A stretch of 64,000 nt of DNA. Source: Mesotoga prima MesG1.Ag.4.2. GTDB lineage: Bacteria > Thermotogota > Thermotogae > Petrotogales > Kosmotogaceae. The stretch lies in assembly GCF_000147715.2 (NCBI RefSeq), contig NC_017934.1, positions 1,054,001 through 1,118,000 of the forward strand. Direction: 5' to 3'. The translations under genes and the position numbers were made by a program. Positions 28,332 to 51,015 of the stretch are shown here, piece after piece; the first letter of the stretch is position 1; each line of letters begins with the position of its first letter. The notes under the pieces were generated by a model. That model was not told where the DNA came from and made no database searches. It saw only the letters and a program-made list of their open reading frames with translations.

Positions 28332-28464
28332 GTAGAGGGAGTAGCCAGTCGTCATGCGTAGGCTTAGAGCCTGTAGTTCAGATTGGGCATCCTTCTTAAC
28401 ACGATTGAGAGTAATGGTCGAAAAGACCGCACCTTGTACGAGGTTGTGAAAGGAGGAACCCTCA
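28328..28464 (+). ncRNA. Candidate bridge RNA from the left end of the IS110 element
   Basis: The non-coding left end can form TGAGGGT/ACCCTCA closing pairs (28327-28333 with 28458-28464) and internal hairpins AGGCT-TAG-AGCCT (28360-28372), GGTC-GAAAA-GACC (28416-28428) and ACCT-TGTACG-AGGT (28431-28444), separated by unpaired stretches that could be guide loops. IS110 recombinases are known to use such an RNA to pair donor and target DNA. The boundaries and loop-target pairing are inferred. Confidence 0.5.
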
Positions 28465-29624
28465 TGTTGTATGTAGGAGTGGACATATCCAGTGAAAGTT
28501 TTGACGCTTGTTTCTATTTACCAGAGAAGAAGAAAATGAAAAGCATGAAGTACAAACAAGACAAGGAAGGTTTTAGGGAATTTCTAAAGAAGCTAAATAC
28601 TTACAAGGACGAGAAACAAGTCGGAATGGAAGCGACGGGTTCGTATCACAGCAACTTGTACGGATTTCTTAGGAGCAAAGGGATAGACGTACAGCTTCTC
28701 GATCCGTATACCCTTAGCAAATTCATGAAGGCTATGAGCAGGTCAAAGACAGACAAGAAAGATGCAAAAAGCATAGCGGTTGCAATGTACAGGATATTCG
28801 ATCTGCTGAGCGTTTCTCAAGTACCAGAGGAAGAGATGTCAGCATTCAGGGACTTGGTTAGGGTGAGAAGCACTGTAGTAGCAAACTGTTCTGATCTTCA
28901 AAGGAAACTGAAGAGCAAATTGAAGATTCATATGCCTGAGCTTCTTAAGACCTTCAGATCCGTTAGTTCACCTGTGCTGTTGCATCTGTTGAGTGTATAT
29001 CCATCCAGAGAAGAGATACTTGACAACGAGGAAGATGCAGTCAAATTGCTCAGCTCTCACAGAAACTGGAGTGAAAAGAAAGCGAGAGAGGTTATCGATT
29101 CACTCAAAGACTCAATAGGCAAGCCAGATACCTTTGGAACCTACTCAACGATTACCAGCACATTCATAGCTGAAATTAAGCTTCTCAAAGACCACGTGGA
29201 AGCCCTGAATGAGGAAATAAAGAAGTTTCTTGAGAAGTTCCCTGACAATCCCCTAAGAACCATACCAGGTATTGCTGAAGTCACGGAAGCCGAAATCGTA
29301 TCTGAAGTAGGCGACATAGACAGATTCTCTTCTGGGAAAGCCTTTGTATCGTACATAGGCCTTGATCCTGTTATTAAGCAGAGTGGTAACATGACTCGCG
29401 GCCTCTCAATTTCTAAGAAGGGTAACAAACATCTACGAAGAACCTTCTACCAGTTAGCTAAAAGCTTGATCAAAAACACTGAAAAGTACAGGAACAAATA
29501 CGAGAAGATGAAAAAGAGGGGGGTGAAAAATAAGGTGGCCCTAATAGCAACTGCAAGAGCTGCAGCTGAAATGGTCTACCAACTTTTGAAAAATAACGTT
29601 CCATTTGACCTTTCACTCTCATAA
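28464..29624 (+). CDS. IS110-family transposase (DEDD/serine bridge-RNA-type recombinase)
   Basis: A 386-residue recombinase. The RuvC-like N-terminal domain has Asp7 (YVGVDISS), Glu56 (GMEATGSY), Asp97 and Asp100 (KTDKKDA), the complete DEDD set. A central coiled-coil region (about 120-250) leads to the transposase_20 domain with LRTIPGIAEVTEAEI, FVSYIGLDP and a QSG motif whose Ser307 is the likely nucleophile, then KKGNKHLRR. Start at 28464 with AAGGAGG 7-8 bases upstream; the longer frame from 28383 would lie in the RNA region. Full length for the family, with no frameshift, so the element may be active. Confidence 0.92.
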   Translation: MLYVGVDISSESFDACFYLPEKKKMKSMKYKQDKEGFREFLKKLNTYKDEKQVGMEATGSYHSNLYGFLRSKGIDVQLLDPYTLSKFMKAMSRSKTDKKDAKSIAVAMYRIFDLLSVSQVPEEEMSAFRDLVRVRSTVVANCSDLQRKLKSKLKIHMPELLKTFRSVSSPVLLHLLSVYPSREEILDNEEDAVKLLSSHRNWSEKKAREVIDSLKDSIGKPDTFGTYSTITSTFIAEIKLLKDHVEALNEEIKKFLEKFPDNPLRTIPGIAEVTEAEIVSEVGDIDRFSSGKAFVSYIGLDPVIKQSGNMTRGLSISKKGNKHLRRTFYQLAKSLIKNTEKYRNKYEKMKKRGVKNKVALIATARAAAEMVYQLLKNNVPFDLSLS

Positions 29625-35730: not shown

Positions 35731-38700
35731 TCAGAATCTGAACCTGAAGAACGGAGCGCCCTTGTAAAGGCCAATCACAAAGTATCTATCCTTCAGTTCC
35801 TTTATGTAGTATTTTAGTGCGATACTTTCGACTGTGTCCTGAATAGTTGTGACATCACTGCCAAAGCTTAATCTCAAGATAAGCTCCAGTGCCATACAGT
35901 GGAGATCAAAATACATCGGAGAGACCTTGGCTATCGACTCGTCCCACATTGAGATGTCTCCCGCATATGTCCCGATTTCGACAAAGCTTCTCTTTCCGCT
36001 CCCGTCAATTCCCAGTGAGAGTCTGTTCAGGACGCCTGGGGTATCTGAAATGGAACCCATAGGAAAGTAAAGCTCATTAATGTGCATTGTGAAGTACAGA
36101 TCCTCGCTCTTTCTAAGCTCCATCGACAGTCCGAATTCATCAAACTTGGCGTTGGTCCCACCCAACAGTGGCTTGTTCCCGAGCTTCACGTTTGATATTC
36201 CAAAGGAATAGGCGGTATCGCCGGTCTCCGATGCCGTTGAAGTTGCAATGAAATACTCTCCTACAGATAGTGAGAAAACTGACAGCCTGGTTGACTGCCA
36301 CAACAGGAATTGTGCCTGCGTTTCAGACTTTGTGAAGTACTTCTCCGGATACTTGTATTTCGAGTCGAACTCAGAAAAACCCGTAGTGAAGTCAATCGAA
36401 GCGTTTTTCCATGAAACATCGCCTATCGAGAGATCGTTGACCTCTATTTTTAGTCGATCATAGATCTTTCTCGAACCGAACAGATAGGGATATCTGAACT
36501 TGACGCCGAGTTCGGCAAAGTCCTTTACTCTAATCGAGGAGCCAAAAACAAGATCTTTGAGCATCCTTTCATCGTCCGCCACGCTTGGTGAGGCGTCGAA
36601 AGTCCAGTCGAGAGTGAATTCAAAGCTGGTCTCAGTTGCGACTTTGATTGTCAACCTCTCCTTGTTGACAAAGTCGTCAAGCTTGTCGCCGGTCTGCCAG
36701 TAAACCTTGCTTTTCGTACTGTGAGAAAAGACCTCGGAATCAAATGTGACCGAGTATGATGTCTCGGATGCCTGTGAAGTGACAGGCATAAAAACAGTCT
36801 CGGTCTTTTGACCTAGAGTCACTTCCCATAACGCGAATTCAGCCTCAGTAGTAAGAATTCCCTTGCCAAGCCAGTTCATCTCTGTTGGACTTGCCACTAG
36901 TTCTTCGTAATCCAATTCCAGGGCATAGTCAGCCTTGAATATCTCCGTATCGATACCGGTCAACAGTTTTCCCGGATGATCGAGCCTCCATTCCCTGTTT
37001 ATGAAATCATAGGTAAGAACGGGGTTGTACTGAAGGCCGACATAGTACCAATCGAAAGGTCTAAAGGTAACCTCGTTCTTGAGAGTGACGGGAATTTCGT
37101 TTTTGGTTAGTTCCCAACCCTCTTCCGAGTCATATATGAAACCAGCTTCATAAGCTGGTTCTAGGATTACATCCACCGAAAGCAATCCCCATTCGCCTTT
37201 ATAAAGCTCAATATCCTTGTACACACGAAGCTTCTTTCCTTCAATCTTAAATGACTTGTCGTATCTAGATTCAAAATAGAACTTAAGTTCCACCGAGACA
37301 AAGCCGTCATAAAGAATGTCGAAGGGATCTATCCAGAAAAGTTTATCTTTGTTCTTCTCATGGAGCGAATCGAAATCCAGTGCATATCTGCCGTTTACCT
37401 TCAGTTTCCCGTCATCCGAGGCATATGTCAAGTAGTTTCTTCCAATTCCTTTGTTGTCAGAGGGCATTATGATATTGAGTTCAGTAGTTGAAGCATCGAA
37501 TGTGCTCTTGATATCACCGCCAATCTTCAGGTTGCCAGCGGTGAAAAGGTATTTGTTCACCTCCAGCACGAAATCCTCCATGTTCGAGGGGTCGAATAGT
37601 TCCGTTACCGTTGCCGCATTTGAGGCCAAGGTGAAGTTCAGTGAATCTACCGAAGCGTCGGCACCAAAAAGGGAGCTTTCCGTCTTCAAAACCGAGGCCT
37701 TGGTCCTCAAAGAGTACAGCACCTTATTATTCACATATCTCTGACCGAAAAGGCCGTTTACATTGAACTCCGATGTGCTTAACTTGAAGAAACCTGCATC
37801 AATACTGCCATCGGATGGTACGGTAAGGTTTTGAAGATTCACCATCCAAAGGTTCTCATCATCGTATCTTGCGAAGGCTCCAATTACGTCTAGTTCAGGC
37901 TCCCAGTCCTGAGGCGAGAGAAGCTGAACATATGCCAACTGCATCTCCGTCGCATTCATTGATTCCTTGACTGCAAACGGATCGAGCTGAGTTACTTTGT
38001 TCTTTGAGATGGTTTCACCAAGATTTATTCCACTGAATGGAGTTTGAAGTTCCTTTAACGAAGGACCGCTAAGATAAAGGGCTCCTCCCTGAATCCTCAG
38101 CCAGTCGAAAGCGGGTTTTAGCAAAACGTACGCCCCGTAACTCGTTTCCTTCTGCTGTCCGAACTGCCCGAACAGTTCCAAATCTCCCAAGGGTGTGTAT
38201 AAGACGGACTTCGCAGTGAAGGCGTCTTCGGTGGAAATCCAGTCCCTGTACCAGGTTCCCTGTAGGAGTAACCAGTCCAGTTCTAAATACCGTAAAGTTA
38301 TTCTTGTCTTGGCTTCGGTAATGCCGCTAAGGTCAACGTCGAAAGGCCTTCGTTCTGGGTCGTCGAGAGGAAAGTAATAAGCTGGAAGATAGAATACAGG
38401 AACATTGCCGATATACATAAGCATGTTCTGCACCGACATTCCCTTTCCAGGTGTAACTACCGCGGAGGAGACTCTGAAGCGGTAATGGGGGTGGGTCTTG
38501 TCACATGTAGTTACATATCCTTCTCCAATATTGAAGGTAGGAGATGCTTCCATAGTCGACTGCACATAGTCACCGAAGACATAAAACGGTACCTTCGAAC
38601 CGGTTTTTGAAGTATCGCCTCTGGCGGCCGGAACCTCAAGTTCCGTTCTAGAGTAAACCTGCATACTTTCGACGCGCTCATTTGTCAAGTCTAGAATCAG

Positions 38701-40083
38701 CCTGTCCGAGAGAATAGTGGTCTCATCACTGAGCATCTTCACGTTTCCCCAGAAGGAGATCGATTCCGGAGTGGAATCCACATTTAGTATCGAAGCATTG
38801 GAGGCTTCAATCGTAGCGTTCATGGTCTCGCTGAAATACTCTACCTTGACTCCACCACCAAGTAGTATCTCCCTGCCACTCTTGGTTCCGGCAATTGTAC
38901 CTCCGACGATCTTCACATTAGATCCTTCAAGGAGACCGGGAACGAGAAGAAGAAGAACAATTGCCGATACTTTCATTATTCTTGTAAACAGCTCCGACAA
39001 TCTATAACTGGCTTTAGTATCGATGAGGGAGTATATTATCACACCAAGTATAGAAAAGGTAATATTCGGTATCCATGGTGCCAGGGATGGGTTTATAAGG
39101 TTCTCCTTTCCCATTCCACTCAACCAGGCTCCCGATCCCTGATAGATGACGACCAGAAGAAAGGTGAGTATGACAGACCATGACTTAGACTGAAGATTGA
39201 ACATCAACGAAACAGGAACGCCAAGAAGAACAATGACGAGAGGAGCGATGGACATTGAGTACTTCTCTTGCAGAGCGACCTCGAGCGAGGAGGTATTGAT
39301 CCCCGTATTCTTGAAGGCTTCGATATCATCCCTCAGTTCTTTACTTGTCTTTTCCTTTGGAGATTTGAAGCTGGCCAGATAACGTTCGATATCTTCATCT
39401 ATTTCGAACTCGGCAGTGCCAAACTGCATCTCAACGCCAAGAAAGCCCGATTCGTCTGTCTGATAGATATTAGCTTTGCTCAAAATCCATTTGTTCGAAG
39501 AGATTACCGCGCTTTCCGCCGTTGTAAGCGTAACTTGACCCCTCGAAACTTCATATATGGAGACGTTCTTGAGCTCTTTCGTATCCTGATCGATTCTCCT
39601 CACGTAGATCATTCTTCCCTGGCTATCCTGCATAAATACGTTTTCCTTGAGAGTAACTTCCGGTTGCTTGTAGACGAATCTCGCCATCGCCTCATTTGCC
39701 TTTGTCGAAGCTGCCGGTACGAGATAGTCGTTCAAGAGATAAGCAAAGCCACTGAAAATAATACCTATGAGAAGAAAGGGTATAACCAACCTCTTCAAGG
39801 ATATGCCGTGGGTTTGAAGGGCAATCAGTTCGTTGTCTGAGCGCATTCTTGAAAGTACCCAGAATATCGCAAGGAGTATTCCCACTGGAATTCCCAGGAC
39901 AATAAACTCGGGAAGATTGTAATAAATGAGTAGAAAGAGTTTATCGATTCCAACCTTGTATCTTATAATCATATCTGAGAGATAGTAAAGCAGCTCCAAA
40001 CTTACGAAGATTATGAACCCCGCGAGACCAACAAATATCGAACCCAACGCTTGAGCTCCTATATACTTTATAAGAGTCTTCAA
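35731..40083 (-). CDS. LptF/G permease fused to LptA/LptD-like outer-membrane export protein
   Basis: One uninterrupted 1450-codon frame. Residues about 1-360 are a YjgP/YjgQ (LptF/G) permease: three helices, a periplasmic domain (about 120-270) and three more helices ending YSLIDTKASY. Met370 begins a segment shaped like a signal peptide (MKVSAIVLLLLVPGLLEGS). Next comes an OstA/LptA-like domain (about 390-500) and an LptD-like part with NVPVFYLPAYYFPLDDPERRP near 590, then a long aromatic beta-strand region that ends in FFRFRF, an outer-membrane beta-signal. In other bacteria these are three proteins carrying lipopolysaccharide from inner to outer membrane. TTG start, close behind phoU. No lptB or lipid A genes are seen nearby. 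The cargo is unknown. Confidence 0.88.
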   Translation of the reverse strand: MKTLIKYIGAQALGSIFVGLAGFIIFVSLELLYYLSDMIIRYKVGIDKLFLLIYYNLPEFIVLGIPVGILLAIFWVLSRMRSDNELIALQTHGISLKRLVIPFLLIGIIFSGFAYLLNDYLVPAASTKANEAMARFVYKQPEVTLKENVFMQDSQGRMIYVRRIDQDTKELKNVSIYEVSRGQVTLTTAESAVISSNKWILSKANIYQTDESGFLGVEMQFGTAEFEIDEDIERYLASFKSPKEKTSKELRDDIEAFKNTGINTSSLEVALQEKYSMSIAPLVIVLLGVPVSLMFNLQSKSWSVILTFLLVVIYQGSGAWLSGMGKENLINPSLAPWIPNITFSILGVIIYSLIDTKASYRLSELFTRIMKVSAIVLLLLVPGLLEGSNVKIVGGTIAGTKSGREILLGGGVKVEYFSETMNATIEASNASILNVDSTPESISFWGNVKMLSDETTILSDRLILDLTNERVESMQVYSRTELEVPAARGDTSKTGSKVPFYVFGDYVQSTMEASPTFNIGEGYVTTCDKTHPHYRFRVSSAVVTPGKGMSVQNMLMYIGNVPVFYLPAYYFPLDDPERRPFDVDLSGITEAKTRITLRYLELDWLLLQGTWYRDWISTEDAFTAKSVLYTPLGDLELFGQFGQQKETSYGAYVLLKPAFDWLRIQGGALYLSGPSLKELQTPFSGINLGETISKNKVTQLDPFAVKESMNATEMQLAYVQLLSPQDWEPELDVIGAFARYDDENLWMVNLQNLTVPSDGSIDAGFFKLSTSEFNVNGLFGQRYVNNKVLYSLRTKASVLKTESSLFGADASVDSLNFTLASNAATVTELFDPSNMEDFVLEVNKYLFTAGNLKIGGDIKSTFDASTTELNIIMPSDNKGIGRNYLTYASDDGKLKVNGRYALDFDSLHEKNKDKLFWIDPFDILYDGFVSVELKFYFESRYDKSFKIEGKKLRVYKDIELYKGEWGLLSVDVILEPAYEAGFIYDSEEGWELTKNEIPVTLKNEVTFRPFDWYYVGLQYNPVLTYDFINREWRLDHPGKLLTGIDTEIFKADYALELDYEELVASPTEMNWLGKGILTTEAEFALWEVTLGQKTETVFMPVTSQASETSYSVTFDSEVFSHSTKSKVYWQTGDKLDDFVNKERLTIKVATETSFEFTLDWTFDASPSVADDERMLKDLVFGSSIRVKDFAELGVKFRYPYLFGSRKIYDRLKIEVNDLSIGDVSWKNASIDFTTGFSEFDSKYKYPEKYFTKSETQAQFLLWQSTRLSVFSLSVGEYFIATSTASETGDTAYSFGISNVKLGNKPLLGGTNAKFDEFGLSMELRKSEDLYFTMHINELYFPMGSISDTPGVLNRLSLGIDGSGKRSFVEIGTYAGDISMWDESIAKVSPMYFDLHCMALELILRLSFGSDVTTIQDTVESIALKYYIKELKDRYFVIGLYKGAPFFRFRF

Positions 40084-40089
40084 GAAGAA

Positions 40090-40791
40090 TCACCCCTCTT
40101 CATTCTGGGTTTCAAAATCCACAGGCTTGAAATCGTCGTTAACGCATCTATAGTGTCTTCCAGTTTCTATGTAAACTGCCGCTTCCATCAATTCCGTTGA
40201 AAGATCGGCAATCTCTTCCAGTGCACAGAAGATCATCATAAGGTCAAACGCCCTACCAACAACCGAAGGCGATTGCTCGCAATAACGAATCAGATCAGAC
40301 TTCACCTCTTCTTGCATTCGATCAATAGCGTCATCGCTCTTACAGAGCCTCTCTGCTTCAGACAGAGATGGTTCAACGAGATTGTCTATTGCTCCCTTAG
40401 TCATAATCGAGACAGATTCAAACATAGACTTCATCTTGTCGTAGTATCCGATAGGCGGTCTCTTCGAAAGTGAAAGACTTGTCTCGCAAATGAAGACACA
40501 CTTATCACCTATTCTCTCCAGGGCACTGACGATATTCATTGAGAGCGTCAAAAGCCTCAGCTCTTTGCCAGTTGGAGTCAATATACCCGTTAGACCAATT
40601 ATCATTGCCTGCAGCTCCACCTGATGGTAATCTATCACAGAATCGGAATATATCACATCTCTCGCCTGGTGTTCATTTCGCTCTAGTACTGCGACCATTG
40701 TCTTGTTGAAGATGCTCTGGACATACCTGGCCATTCTCAAGATCTCGATTCTCAAATTACCTATTCTTTCAAGGCCTACTTTAGATATCAT
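40090..40791 (-). CDS. PhoU-family protein
   Basis: A 233-residue all-helical protein with two PhoU repeats, each with an acidic metal-binding helix (ALERIGDKCVFI near 88 and ALEEIADLSTEL near 197). PhoU proteins restrain phosphate uptake and the PhoR kinase; free-standing copies also control other transporters. No pst genes are nearby. The ATG at 40791 is chosen because the upstream ATG at 40809 would place the GGAGG site inside the gene. It overlaps nadK by 11 bases and precedes the Lpt fusion by 6. Confidence 0.85.
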   Translation of the reverse strand: MISKVGLERIGNLRIEILRMARYVQSIFNKTMVAVLERNEHQARDVIYSDSVIDYHQVELQAMIIGLTGILTPTGKELRLLTLSMNIVSALERIGDKCVFICETSLSLSKRPPIGYYDKMKSMFESVSIMTKGAIDNLVEPSLSEAERLCKSDDAIDRMQEEVKSDLIRYCEQSPSVVGRAFDLMMIFCALEEIADLSTELMEAAVYIETGRHYRCVNDDFKPVDFETQNEEG

Positions 40792-41599
40792 CCTTAAGCC
40801 GACCTCCAAAAGCGAGCCTTCTCTTGAGCAAAGCGACGAAATCGAAGCTTCCTTCCCTGAGAAGAGTCACCTTTCTATCTGAGAGTGAAACTTCAATGGT
40901 TTCCCCGGTCCTCAGTTCAGAGACGAGCTCCCCATCCACATAGGCTTCTAGAGGAAAGCCCTTGTCTTGTTTCACTTCCATTCTCACTTTTCTAGAGGCT
41001 CCTATGACTATCGATCCAACGAAGGGATTATGGGGGCATATTGGCGTTATCTGGAAGCAATTGGCCTCGGGATCAACAAGTGCGCCGCCCGCCGCCATCG
41101 TATAAGCAGTGGAGCCCGTATTTGTGGCAAAGATTATGCCATCGCCTACGACTTGGTAGCTGCTTTGCCCTGATATTTCTACTGACAAGGAGACAGTCCT
41201 GCTTGGTGTTGAACGCTCGACGACGCAATCGTTGAGAGCATATCTTACGGTTCCATCAAGGCTTATCTCCATTACATTCCTATCGACACCATCGAGTTTT
41301 CCCTCCTGCAAAAGGTCGAGGGCCGTATGCAGCATGCTGAGTTCAAAGGCAGCTAGGAATCCGACACTACCAACTCTGAAGCTCATGATGGGAAGATTGT
41401 TGAGAACAGCCATCTGTACTGCCTCGAGGACCGTTCCGTCTCCCCCAAACGTAAGGATGACATCCTGCTCCGGAACGGAACAGGAAGCACGATCTTCGCA
41501 GAAGGAAGTATCGATCTTATGTAATTCTATCTCTCTTGAAAGCCAGTCAAGCATCTCGGCGGAGATTCTGGTTCTGTTGTAGAACACTGCAGCCTTCAT
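40781..41599 (-). CDS. nadK: NAD kinase
   Basis: A 272-residue kinase that phosphorylates NAD to NADP. The GGDGT motif (LTFGGDGTVLEA, about residue 53) and the substrate loop NTGSTAYTMAAGGALVDP near 155 are present. The start at 41599 follows a GGGGTGAG site; a longer frame from 41644 is unsupported. It heads the operon nadK-phoU-lpt fusion-udg-epimerase-rarA-macro, as spacing throughout is tight or overlapping. Confidence 0.93.
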   Translation of the reverse strand: MKAAVFYNRTRISAEMLDWLSREIELHKIDTSFCEDRASCSVPEQDVILTFGGDGTVLEAVQMAVLNNLPIMSFRVGSVGFLAAFELSMLHTALDLLQEGKLDGVDRNVMEISLDGTVRYALNDCVVERSTPSRTVSLSVEISGQSSYQVVGDGIIFATNTGSTAYTMAAGGALVDPEANCFQITPICPHNPFVGSIVIGASRKVRMEVKQDKGFPLEAYVDGELVSELRTGETIEVSLSDRKVTLLREGSFDFVALLKRRLAFGGRLKDDI

Positions 41600-44190: not shown

Positions 44191-45930
44191 CTATCTTATT
44201 CCTGAATCAATAAGAACCCATATGGATATTCCTAGAGCAGCAAGCGAACTTACTGTAGAGAGAATCAGCCAGGGTGAAGTCTTTTTCTGAAGTGCTTCAA
44301 CATCCTGTTTTGTGGCGGCGTCAACAGTGGCCTTGTTGATCTCGGCTACTCTTTCCGAGAGATTCACAATAACAGGCTGAGTCTCAAGGTCGCTAATTTT
44401 GAGGTATCTTTCAAGATTGACTACCGTTGTGTTTAGCCTCGATTCTAGTGAATCCGCTCTGGTCTTCAGTGCCTTGATCTCACTTTCGTTCTTTCCTAGC
44501 TGTGTGTTAACCGTATCCATTCCAAGAGAGATTCTGGAAAGACTCGCGTCGACGGTCACGTTAAGCATATCCATATTCTCATTAATCCTTGCCTCGAGAT
44601 CACCGATGCTAGCCTGTGTTGCAGCAAAGTTCTTCGACTGCTGATCGGTAAGAGCGTTGAACTTGGAATTCAGAGCGTTAAGGTCGCTCCTGAGAGTGGA
44701 TACAGTGCTAACCGAAGACTTTAGAGAAGCGAGTTCATTTTCATGGATAGTAACGATTTCGTTTATCGCATTGATGCTTCTTTGGAGATTTCCAATATCG
44801 CTCTTGATAATTCCGGTTTCAGAAGCGAAGTCGTCTCTCAGGGTTTGGAGATCCTTATACAACACTTCGCTGGAGTTTTTAACCTGCGCAAGCTCGTCGA
44901 TCCCAGCATAAAGATTCAAGTTTGCCTTAAGGTCGGTCTTGGTCACGTAGTTCTGGAGATCTCCGATTTTTGCGTAATCCGAAGAAATCGCGTTCACTCT
45001 TGCCGAAAGATAATCAAGCTTATCAATCGCCTCGGTAGGAAGCTTCACATTAGCAATCTGATCTTCAAGAGAAGAGATCTTGTTCTGGAGATCTCTCACG
45101 CTCAGCACATCGCCAGAAAGTGTCGTCATTGATTCCTTGATCGATGCAATTTCGATTGCATTTGCAGATGCCCTGTTGATTATTGTGCTGAGTTTGGCAT
45201 CATAGTCACTTAACGAAGAAGACAATGACCTTACAGTTGAATCAAGAGTCGAAATAGCCCTTTCGTTTGAAGAAATACTGCTCTGTATCATACTTACGTT
45301 GCCACTGAGTGTGTCAACTCTTCTAACGGCATCGTTGACCTTTGATTCCATAACCGTGAGATCAGACATGCTGTTCTGTACATTCTGTACATCAAGAGCA
45401 AGCATGTCCAGCTTTTTGGTGGTCAAGGAAAGATCTTCAACGAATTTCATGATCTGCTGTCTGAGTGATTCGACAGTGCTCTGAGATACACTCCCGTTTG
45501 TAGAGATTCCCAGAGAGCTAATTCTGTTTTCGAGAGCGGTTATTCTCAGCTGTAGATCCATGGTGTCGATAAGTCTTCCGGTGGAATCCGTCAAAGCCAG
45601 TTCCAAAGCTTCAAGTCTTGACATAACCGTACCATCTACCGCTCCGTTCTGGGGGACGGTACCCTGCCTGGCGAAGTTCAGTTCAACGTAATCGAGCGTC
45701 TTCTTTAACATGACAGCCGTCTGATACCTTGTCAGAGCATCGTTTCCATTGAAATAAGTTTTGCCGTCGGCCTGCACAATCCCGGTTAGAATACCGAGGT
45801 CAGAAAGCTTCATCACGGCATCGTAAGCCCAGTGATTTGAACTAACATCAACGTAATTGACCGCAGCGAATGCTGAAGTAAATGCCAGACCGAGAATAAG
45901 CAGTGAGGCAAGTAAAACTTTCATTTTCAA
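44191..45930 (-). CDS. Omp-alpha-like outer-membrane rod protein (SLH domain, coiled coil, C-terminal anchor)
   Basis: A 579-residue exported protein. Signal peptide about 1-22, one SLH domain (YVDVSSNHWAYDAVMKLSDL to about residue 80), then over 400 residues of heptad-like coiled coil rich in Ser, Asp and Leu, and a C-terminal hydrophobic helix (SPWLILSTVSSLAALGISIWV) with a short tail. This is the plan of Omp-alpha of Thermotoga maritima, which links peptidoglycan to the toga across a wide periplasm. The TTG at 45930 is 8 bases from GGAGG; an ATG two codons later is the alternative. A strong terminator follows, so it is expressed alone, probably at high level. Confidence 0.9.
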   Translation of the reverse strand: MKMKVLLASLLILGLAFTSAFAAVNYVDVSSNHWAYDAVMKLSDLGILTGIVQADGKTYFNGNDALTRYQTAVMLKKTLDYVELNFARQGTVPQNGAVDGTVMSRLEALELALTDSTGRLIDTMDLQLRITALENRISSLGISTNGSVSQSTVESLRQQIMKFVEDLSLTTKKLDMLALDVQNVQNSMSDLTVMESKVNDAVRRVDTLSGNVSMIQSSISSNERAISTLDSTVRSLSSSLSDYDAKLSTIINRASANAIEIASIKESMTTLSGDVLSVRDLQNKISSLEDQIANVKLPTEAIDKLDYLSARVNAISSDYAKIGDLQNYVTKTDLKANLNLYAGIDELAQVKNSSEVLYKDLQTLRDDFASETGIIKSDIGNLQRSINAINEIVTIHENELASLKSSVSTVSTLRSDLNALNSKFNALTDQQSKNFAATQASIGDLEARINENMDMLNVTVDASLSRISLGMDTVNTQLGKNESEIKALKTRADSLESRLNTTVVNLERYLKISDLETQPVIVNLSERVAEINKATVDAATKQDVEALQKKTSPWLILSTVSSLAALGISIWVLIDSGIR

Positions 45931-47804: not shown

Positions 47805-49328
47805 TTGAGGATCGCCATCGACGGGCCGGCGGCATCGGGAAAATCTACTGTTGCAAGGCTGGTTGCTGAGAAACTGGATTTTGTTTATATTGACACGGGT
47901 GCAATGTACAGAGCACTCGCTCTGAAGGCCAAGAAAGCCGGAATTTCCTTTTCCAACGCCGATGAAATGGCTGAACTGATGAGCCATACGTATTTCTCGC
48001 TTTCGGATTCCGGTATCATCCTAGACGGAAGCCCGCTTGGTGACGAGATAAGAACCAGAGAGGTTTCGCTCCTTTCCTCAGATATCGCAAAGTATTCTTA
48101 TGTACGAGATTTTTTGACTGAGCAGCAGAGGACGCTTTCAAAGCAGGGAAACGTTGTTATGGAAGGGCGAGACATCGGTACTGTTGTTATTCCCGAAGCT
48201 GAGCTTAAAATATTTCTTACTGCATCTGCCGGCGAAAGAGCCAGAAGGAGAGTTAAGCAGCTGAAATCCAGTGGGGTAGAAGCTACCTATGACGAAATTC
48301 TCGCAGAGATAGAAAGAAGGGATCTTAACGACTCGACGAGATCCGTTGCCCCACTAAAGGCGGCCTCGGATGCCATAATTCTGGACACTACAGGTATGAG
48401 TATTGAAGAAGTTGTTTCAAGAATCGTATCACTGGCGGAGAAGCGACAGAGAGTCCACCTTGCAAGGTCAGTAGGCTTCTGCTACGGAGTCGACAGGGCT
48501 GTCAGTGAGGCTGTGAAACTGCTTAAGTCGGGAAAGAAGGTATATGCAACAGGAGAAATCGTTCATAACGAGAAAGTGATGGACGATCTAAAGCAGCTGG
48601 GTCTAGAAGTAATAGATGACTGCATTTTATCTGGAAGACATGAAGGTGTCGCAATAATCAGGGCTCATGGAATCGACCCTGCTTCGGAAGAGAAATTACG
48701 GCGTGTTTTCGATGAAGTAATAGATCTGACCTGCCCTATAGTGTACAATGTATTTAGCCTGGCTGTAGATCTTCAGCGGCAAGGCAGTTTTATTGTGGTA
48801 TATGGAAAGAAGAACCATGCCGAAGTAACTGCTCTTTCAGGTAGACTGAATAGGTATCTCATAGTCGAACCCGGAGAGAACTACGAGGAAGTTCTAAAAA
48901 AATTAGAAGGACTTGACCAAATTGCAATTGTCTCTCAAACGACAATGAGCAGTCTGGAATTTGAGAACTTCTCAGGGTTCGCGAAATCGCGTCTTGGAGA
49001 ACGTGTCGCTGTTTATAATACGATTTGCAAGGTTACAATACAGCGTGAATCTGAAGCCGAACGTCTGGCAAAGATTTCCGATACGGTAATTGTGATAGGT
49101 GGAAAAAACAGCTCAAACACAAAGAAACTGGTAGAAATAGTCCAAAGACTCGGTAAGAGGGCACTACATGTAACAGAGCTGACTGATCTTCCTCAAGGCG
49201 ATATGGGGAAGGTTGCCATAATTAGCGGCACATCAACTCCGTACGAGCAAATCCAGAAGATACTGGATTACATAGACAATAAGAGGGAGGTAACCAACAA
49301 TGGAAGAGAAAATGAATCGGCAAGATGA
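47805..49328 (+). CDS. Bifunctional fusion: CMP kinase and IspH (HMBPP reductase)
   Basis: A 507-residue two-domain protein. Residues 1-218 are cytidylate kinase (P-loop DGPAASGKST, then DTGAMYRALA and GRDIGTVV). Residues from about 222 are IspH, the last enzyme of the MEP isoprenoid pathway, with [4Fe-4S] cysteines in VGFCYGV, DLTCPIV and NTICKVT. TTG start 2 bases after the aspS stop. The rpsA start lies 29 bases inside its end. The domains have unrelated reactions; the fusion, known in some Firmicutes and relatives, probably reflects their conserved gene order. Confidence 0.94.
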   Translation: MRIAIDGPAASGKSTVARLVAEKLDFVYIDTGAMYRALALKAKKAGISFSNADEMAELMSHTYFSLSDSGIILDGSPLGDEIRTREVSLLSSDIAKYSYVRDFLTEQQRTLSKQGNVVMEGRDIGTVVIPEAELKIFLTASAGERARRRVKQLKSSGVEATYDEILAEIERRDLNDSTRSVAPLKAASDAIILDTTGMSIEEVVSRIVSLAEKRQRVHLARSVGFCYGVDRAVSEAVKLLKSGKKVYATGEIVHNEKVMDDLKQLGLEVIDDCILSGRHEGVAIIRAHGIDPASEEKLRRVFDEVIDLTCPIVYNVFSLAVDLQRQGSFIVVYGKKNHAEVTALSGRLNRYLIVEPGENYEEVLKKLEGLDQIAIVSQTTMSSLEFENFSGFAKSRLGERVAVYNTICKVTIQRESEAERLAKISDTVIVIGGKNSSNTKKLVEIVQRLGKRALHVTELTDLPQGDMGKVAIISGTSTPYEQIQKILDYIDNKREVTNNGRENESAR

Positions 49329-51015
49329 AAACCTGAGCATGGAGGAGATATTTGAACAGATGGATGTTTCCTCAGCAAGGAAGGGAAGTAGAAAGGATGC
49401 AGAGGTTTTCTCCATTCAGCCAGACGGCTTGATGGTGATCATGGACGGAAAGCTAGACGGGTTCGTACCCGCGGATCAGCTGGTAAATGAACTGGAAGAG
49501 TACAACGTTGGAGATAAGATAGAAGTCATGGTCATTAAGACTAACGAAGAAGAGGGAAGAAGTACTGTCTCCGAGAAGAGGGTCCATGCTAGACAGGCAG
49601 TAAGCAAGGTTGAGAAGGCCTACAGAGAAGGAAAAGCGATTGACGGAAAGATCGTTTCAGAAACAAAGGCAGGATACAACGTCAGATTAGTTAAGACGGT
49701 CCCGGCCTTCCTACCCGGATCCGAGTCGGGTATCAGAAAGGGAGATCCCGCTCCAGAGGGAACGTTGAAATTCAAGGTAATAAGGTTCAAGAGACAGAGG
49801 AACGGCATAAACGTTGTTGTTTCTCTAAGGGCATTCCAGGAAGAAGCTATCAAGGCTTACTTCGAGACGATCGAAGTCGGTCAGGAGCTTGAAGGAACGG
49901 TTGAATCCATCAAGAACTTCGGCGCCTTTGTCAAGCTCAACGACAACGTGACCGCTCTTATTCCAGCCTCAGAGATGAGTTGGGATCCCAGTGTAAGAAT
50001 CAGCGATCTTCTCAAGCCTGGGCAGACGGTCAGGACCAAAGTAATCGGGGTCGATGAAGCTGAAAAGAAAATCTCCCTTTCTCTCAAGCAGATGACTGAA
50101 GACCCCTGGTCCACACTGAAAGACAGGTATGAGGTTGACTCTACAGTAGTGGGAACCGTTAAGAATATCACCCCATTCGGATTCTTTGTTTCGCTCGAAC
50201 CCGGAGTAGAGGGTTTGGTTCACATCTCAGAAGTCTTCTGGGGAAACATCAAGAAGGATCTCAAGAGCGTTGTGGAAGTGGGAGACGAAGTCAAAGTAAC
50301 CATCAAGGAAATCAATGAGGAAAAGAGAACTCTCTCTCTTTCTTACAGAGAAGCTATGGGAGATCCTTGGCAGAACATAGGCGACAAGTACAAGGAAGGT
50401 GACATCCTCAAGGCGAAGACTGCAAAGGTACTTCCTACTGGCGTCATTCTCGAGCTTGAAGAGTATGTTTCAGGATTTGTACCGGTTTCCGAAGTCTCCT
50501 GGAACTTTGTCGACAGAATCGAAGATGTTGTGAAAGAAGGAGACGAGATAGAAGTCAAGATCCTTTCAATAGACTCCGTAAACAGAAGAATGAGACTGAG
50601 TATAAAACAGGCCTATTCCGACCCCTGGGAAAAGGTTTCGGCCGAACTATCGGTCGGTGACCACGTGACTGGAACTGTCACAAGGCTCACGAAGTCCGGC
50701 GCGATAGTCTTGATTGACTCTTACGGAGTTGAAGCCTTCCTTCCTGTCTCTCAGGTTTCTCTAGAAAGGACAGAGAATATCGAAGATTCCGTACAGGTTG
50801 GTAGACATGACCAGTTCAAAATAATCAGGCTTGTCTACGATCCCGACAACGACACAAGAAACATGGTAGTTTCCATAAGACAGCTTATAAAGGACAAAGA
50901 GGCTGCCGAGACTGATAAGGCCCTCAAGGATCTGAACGGAAATGGATCGGTTAACTCCAACAGTTTGGGAGAAATGATAAAGAACCAGCTCGAGGAAGAA
51001 GGAGAAAGCCTCTAG
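49300..51015 (+). CDS. rpsA: Ribosomal protein S1
   Basis: A 571-residue chain of S1 (OB-fold) repeats. After a short leader (residues 1-35), repeats start near 35, 110, 195, 280, 365 and 450, with clear segments such as GTVESIKNFGAFVKLND and GTVKNITPFGFFVSLE. S1 draws mRNA to the 30S subunit. The ATG at 49300 is 9 bases from GGGAGG and lies within the end of the IspH part. Its stop overlaps the GTG of der. Confidence 0.93.
   Translation: MEEKMNRQDENLSMEEIFEQMDVSSARKGSRKDAEVFSIQPDGLMVIMDGKLDGFVPADQLVNELEEYNVGDKIEVMVIKTNEEEGRSTVSEKRVHARQAVSKVEKAYREGKAIDGKIVSETKAGYNVRLVKTVPAFLPGSESGIRKGDPAPEGTLKFKVIRFKRQRNGINVVVSLRAFQEEAIKAYFETIEVGQELEGTVESIKNFGAFVKLNDNVTALIPASEMSWDPSVRISDLLKPGQTVRTKVIGVDEAEKKISLSLKQMTEDPWSTLKDRYEVDSTVVGTVKNITPFGFFVSLEPGVEGLVHISEVFWGNIKKDLKSVVEVGDEVKVTIKEINEEKRTLSLSYREAMGDPWQNIGDKYKEGDILKAKTAKVLPTGVILELEEYVSGFVPVSEVSWNFVDRIEDVVKEGDEIEVKILSIDSVNRRMRLSIKQAYSDPWEKVSAELSVGDHVTGTVTRLTKSGAIVLIDSYGVEAFLPVSQVSLERTENIEDSVQVGRHDQFKIIRLVYDPDNDTRNMVVSIRQLIKDKEAAETDKALKDLNGNGSVNSNSLGEMIKNQLEEEGESL

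Follow-up and report, generated by a model that had tools for sequence, protein, structure and literature searches.

An LptF-LptD fusion gene of Thermotogota as a candidate polyprotein of a glycolipid-export machine

The 64,000-nucleotide stretch of Mesotoga prima MesG1.Ag.4.2 analysed here (contig NC_017934.1, positions 1,054,001 to 1,118,000; hereafter the window) contains an unbroken open reading frame (ORF) of 1450 codons on its minus strand, with a TTG start at 40083 and a stop at 35731. The frame joins an inner-membrane permease of the LptF/LptG type to an outer-membrane LptD, which raises the question of how a single translation product can serve two membranes. The fusion is intact, and both of its parts are complete: an LptF permease at residues 1-368 and an LptD at 388-1450. 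The reading favored here, with a probability of about two in three, is that LptF and LptD are made as a polyprotein, which signal peptidase I would cut into LptF and outer-membrane LptD, and that they belong to a glycolipid-export (Lpt) machine.

The two halves of the chain and their distribution

The N-terminal half has a strong match to PF03739 (LptF/LptG), which covers residues 6-351 with an E-value of 6.6e-80, a score of 269 bits against a curated cut-off of 27.9, and profile positions 1-351 of 353. Solved LptF chains align to residues 24-368 at 2e-8 (phmmer). The full-length model of a shorter homologue from Athalassotoga, with a mean predicted local distance difference test score (pLDDT) of 79.4, contains six transmembrane (TM) helices and the periplasmic jellyroll, and its permease module resembles both LptG (6mjp_G, Z 27.4) and LptF (8frn_F, Z 24.5). 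Scores against the LptF and LptG equivalogs (TIGR04407 and TIGR04408) are 157-162 bits, below the cut-offs of 230 and 240. Judged by these profiles, the permease is of the LptF/G type and neither equivalog specifically.

The C-terminal half is an LptD as judged from profile matches, fold matches and a cysteine pair. Of 30 homologues, 8-9 are matched by NCBIfam LptD models (best 5.5e-11) and 21 by the LptD_N Pfam (PF03968, best 8e-9); the Mesotoga protein itself has no such Pfam match. A profile search of solved structures with the LptD part recovered both LptA and LptD, and hhalign aligns the E. coli LptD N-domain with an E-value of 9e-6. The match to the NCBIfam LptD equivalog NF003358 scores 18.6 bits against a cut-off of 944, a whole-length threshold that only excludes close kinship with that group.

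The AlphaFold2 model of residues 388-1450 is nearly all strand (mean pLDDT 67.9) and its 15 best Foldseek matches are all LptD, with E-values down to 6.1e-15, which supports the C-terminal beta-barrel proposed in the initial annotation of this locus. The Athalassotoga model likewise has LptD on top; in it residues 1-354 match LptF/G, and residues 385-1067 match LptD (Z up to 20) from E. coli LptD residue 48 onward. The N-domain of the 388-1450 model is similar to LptA, with a Z of 13.7 and a root-mean-square deviation of 2.4 over 118 residues. This region had been annotated as a periplasmic LptA bridge, but it is really LptD's own N-terminal LptA-like domain, and a separate LptA of 221 amino acids (aa) with its own signal peptide is encoded elsewhere in the genome. 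At about 1065 aa, the LptD parts of Kosmotogaceae are longer than those elsewhere (roughly 700-850 aa). AlphaFold2 models about 180 residues of the Mesotoga LptD part (580-760, nucleotides about 37800-38350 of the window) poorly.

The only cysteines in the whole Mesotoga chain are C527 and C1396, and their conservation among the aligned homologues is given in Table 1. C527 is aligned by hhalign to the FTSC motif of E. coli LptD, and the pair falls at E. coli C173 and C725, the C-terminal correspondence being by eye. Interdomain disulfides of LptD have been described (PMC3944529), and a disulfide from the N- to the C-terminal part of LptD is predicted for C527 and C1396.

A search for the fusion throughout Thermotogota found a permease match in 100 of 103 genomes, in a frame that is nearly always 1076-1494 aa long. 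Full-length fusions of at least 1000 aa were recovered and aligned from this set (85 in all, Thermotoga maritima included). The T. maritima fusion, which we take to be TM1735, aligns without a break through LptF, the join and the LptD N-domain (38% over 632 positions, BLASTP), and the PhoU upstream of it matches PDB 1sum over all 235 residues. A relative in a Mesotoga metagenome-assembled genome is 91% identical over residues 1-430. The Mesotoga chain ends in FFRFRF, as the initial annotation described, and its single frame holds without a break in the window, in the genus and across the phylum.

This distribution also bears on the possibility that a missed stop or frameshift joined two genes in the assembly. 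The 85 aligned proteins, which come from different genomes and include some from complete ones, share the same fusion, and the BLASTP alignment to T. maritima is continuous from LptF into LptD. Nothing was found in favor of an assembly artefact, and it is refuted. Most of the shorter permease frames run off contig ends; a few are broken by frameshifts or a stop and are probably assembly errors. Occurrence outside Thermotogota was probed only with patterns derived from Thermotogota, in one scan covering 84,980 species; all 45 loci found belong to Thermotogota by record name or, for one locus titled 'bacterium', by close sequence.

The join between LptF and LptD

A hydrophobic, basic-flanked stretch follows LptF in all 85 homologues. 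Next come a small or aliphatic position, an aromatic one and then Ser, Gly or Ala, and the first strand of LptD starts 2-3 residues further on, although a few members deviate. The -1 column contains S36/G23/A18, so that S, G or A makes up 91%, and no single residue exceeds 45% in the non-redundant set. The -2 column is mostly aromatic (Phe) and the -3 column is small or aliphatic. Members of one family (f6; L059 and L066 from genomes G007 and G006) have about 40 residues of T/P/S-rich linker separating the signal segment from LptD.

Two genomes, G053 and G005, are clearly unfused. In G053 the stop of LptF is followed 5 nucleotides later by the start of LptD as MHLRYKSFSPVLFIISLFFIILSGTKVFSA, a classic signal peptide with a basic n-region at the homologous place. 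In G005 LptD is a separate gene beginning MVIKKFKKNQIFHILILIILLIPLMAFTQ; its product carries a signal peptide and likewise has the Cys pair. Because the unfused LptD proteins begin with a signal peptide at this place, the segment in the fusion would by homology be an internal signal peptide. In a tree of the permease domain G053 nests among fused relatives (support 98/90) and G005 groups with its fused family (98/97, long branches). Since the unfused genomes nest among fused relatives, the fusion looks older, and on this tree the splits are most likely secondary fissions. The fission in G053 (L170 4735-8482) lies exactly at the join, and LptD there gained a new signal-peptide n-region. The unfused set of G005 (L088 2974-5316, L202 1363-3909) has two adjacent diverged LptF/G genes beside the separate LptD; the two are sisters in the tree, on long branches, and are possibly a heterodimer re-evolved via duplication.

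The C-terminus of LptF is cytoplasmic by established topology; therefore, a seventh membrane crossing is required before LptD. In the proposed mechanism, LptF would insert with its C-terminus left in the cytoplasm, and segment 369-387 would act as an internal signal peptide carrying LptD across the inner membrane. Signal peptidase I would then cut at about Gly387/Ser388. LptF would remain in the inner membrane with LptB. Since there is only one permease gene in the genome, an LptF homodimer is expected, and the complex is probably LptB2F2, a stoichiometry that is a prediction. The freed LptD would go to BamA, form the C527-C1396 disulfide, insert in the outer membrane and dock on the stand-alone LptA.

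The segment could instead be a seventh TM helix, comparable to the single TM anchor of LptC, in a chain that is never cut. The LptD N-domain would then serve as LptC or LptA and the membranes would be covalently joined. The hydrophobic length of the segment (median 17) is similar to that of the shorter LptF TM helices, and the N-domain in the 388-1450 model has a fold match to LptC as well (Z 12.6 over 117 residues). The Mesotoga genome yielded no stand-alone LptC; weak LptC-profile matches fall for the most part on separate OstA-type ORFs and fail to demonstrate one. However, nearly all homologues are without a linker, and since the first LptD strand lies 2-3 residues past the motif, an uncut chain would have to bridge, with one LptA-type domain, a periplasm that balloons at the poles in Thermotogales (PMC3387000). 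The separate LptA gene, the signal peptide of the unfused relatives and a -3/-1 pattern conserved by residue class, as at a cut site, also argue against it. An uncut chain is unlikely on this evidence. It is quite unlikely that the whole chain is kept as a covalent trans-envelope lipid conduit, in which seven inner-membrane helices and an outer-membrane barrel would also fix the inter-membrane distance.

The separation of the chain could also come about in other ways. The initial annotation noted that Met370 starts a signal-peptide-like stretch and suggested that signal peptidase or an internal start might release LptD. The signal-peptide-like join stands, and release of LptD is the likely outcome; the internal start is not borne out. 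A ribosome starting near the ATG at codon 370, which does open the stretch, would yield a pre-LptD of its own, in addition to the long chain or in its place, but any Met in this region is found in just 36 of the 85 homologues. Start codons preceded by a Shine-Dalgarno-like sequence occur there in 9/85, compared to 5-14/85 in control stretches and 70/80 at the real start, and an internal start seems highly improbable. Another envelope protease might separate the chain inside the N-terminal part of LptD, as the low confidence at the join of the Athalassotoga model (residues 374-387 below 50) and the linker of the f6 relatives would allow. However, in most members the first strand of LptD follows the segment without a linker, and cleavage by such a protease is very unlikely.

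Several observations weigh against the polyprotein reading. The Mesotoga site, L385-E386-G387, is weaker than the canonical AxA, and the TM-like hydrophobic length of the segment counts here as well. A crude -3/-1 score fails to separate the segment from the exits of LptF TM3 and TM5 and is not used as proof. C1396 is absent from 13 of the 85 aligned homologues. Cleavage of the chain is something that we infer from sequence.

Partners, cargo and neighboring genes

The genome has a stand-alone LptB (291.7 bits against a cut-off of 240) in a gene that adjoins Skp/OmpH, and signal peptidase I, BamA and Skp/OmpH are all present. Thus, of the two stand-alone components that the initial annotation proposed to look for, LptB was found and LptC was not found in the Mesotoga genome. 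LpxC occurs in 0 of 103 Thermotogota genomes and LpxB and KdtA are never above cut-off among them, with E. coli and other controls positive. Since LpxC is absent and LpxB and KdtA stay below cut-off, the cargo is probably other than lipopolysaccharide (LPS), as the initial annotation had suggested. An envelope glycolipid or other amphipathic lipid is the probable cargo.

An adjoining epimerase had been taken as a sign of an envelope role. It is not a conserved partner; a pattern search found it at 3 of the 24 loci with enough downstream sequence. The window also encodes an SLH-domain protein at 44191-45930 on the minus strand (SLH E 3.9e-5), with a signal peptide, a long coiled coil and a C-terminal hydrophobic anchor, which resembles the toga tether Omp-alpha. 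A single ORF at 47805-49328 on the plus strand fuses cytidylate kinase (residues 1-212) and IspH/LytB (217-490); an S1-domain-like protein comes immediately after it at 49300-51015. An IS110-family transposase is located at 28383-29624 on the plus strand. The features of the fusion gene are collected in Table 1.

Table 1. Coordinates in the window of the fusion gene, its predicted coding features and the gene upstream
Feature	Position	Strand	Basis or remark
PhoU-like gene directly upstream	40090..40809	-	1sum, E 2.2e-33; related to the gene next to the fusion in T. maritima
Ribosome-binding site GAGGGGTG	40091..40098	-	7 nt upstream of the TTG start; read from sequence; rated good
LptF/LptG permease module, residues 1-368 (3 TM helices, periplasmic jellyroll, 3 TM helices)	38980..40083	-	PF03739
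Signal-peptide-like segment within the chain, residues 369-387; signal peptidase I predicted to cut after Gly387	38923..38979	-	Conservation and unfused relatives
LptD N-terminal LptA-like (beta-taco) domain, residues ~388-545	38449..38922	-	LptD_N Pfam in homologues, LptA fold match, hhalign
Cys527 codon, motif TTC-x(4)-PHY	38503..38505	-	Cys in 85/85 homologues; position of E. coli LptD C173
LptD outer-membrane beta-barrel, residues ~546-1450, ending FFRFRF	35734..38448	-	AlphaFold2 and Foldseek
Cys1396 codon, LHC motif near the C-terminus	35896..35898	-	Cys in 72/85; proposed partner of Cys527 (E. coli C725)

Novelty and relation to known systems

LptD is present in nearly every Thermotogota genome, concealed by its fusion to LptF and by strong divergence. 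This is contrary to a survey that describes Thermotogae as without nearly all of the outer-membrane genes studied except bamA, with lptD in its set (PMC8871954). The LptD part is about 15% identical outside Kosmotogaceae, and the survey may have overlooked it for this reason. The parts of the system are known; in the literature searched, the gene architecture, the internal signal peptide and LptD of Thermotogota in fused form were not found described, and neither a description of an LptF-LptD fusion nor a precedent for the cleaved polyprotein was found.

The finding changes the gene inventory on which arguments about how the outer membrane arose are based, and it is consistent with a diderm ancestry in which LPS was lost. 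The toga also gains a concrete, testable lipid-export route. The gene probably encodes a bacterial polyprotein whose internal signal peptide delivers an outer-membrane barrel, and such a polyprotein would tie the synthesis of permease and translocon to a one-to-one ratio.

The Lpt system of Borrelia burgdorferi belongs to a diderm without LPS, and a glycolipid has been proposed as its cargo (PMC10353723). The same paper mentions Lpt orthologues in T. maritima. In Borrelia, however, all of the genes are separate and LptF, LptG and LptC are present, and the words fusion and fused appear nowhere in the paper. The Lpt cluster of diderm Firmicutes shares a single LptF/G homologue and OstA-domain proteins with the system described here; it differs in that LPS genes are present and LptD was not found, and the sections consulted of PMC5007114 report no such fusion.

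The LPS Lpt system of E. coli (LptB2FGC-LptA-LptDE) has in common with the present one the LptF fold, the LptB ATPase and the LptA bridge. The E. coli LptD shares the LptA-like N-domain, the 'TTC' and C-terminal Cys, and the large barrel. In contrast to E. coli, LptF and LptD are one gene here, and the permease is present in one copy where E. coli has an LptF/LptG pair; LpxC is lacking, LpxB and KdtA are not above cut-off, and LptC is not detected in the Mesotoga genome. The region that holds C31 in E. coli LptD is also lacking, the match beginning at E. coli residue 48.

The fbcH gene of Bradyrhizobium encodes cytochromes b and c1 as a polyprotein that is cleaved by signal peptidase. There, as proposed for LptF-LptD, one gene encodes a polytopic inner-membrane protein and, after it, an exported protein, with an internal signal peptide between the two. 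The protein families are unrelated, however, and the exported product in Thermotogota would be an outer-membrane barrel.

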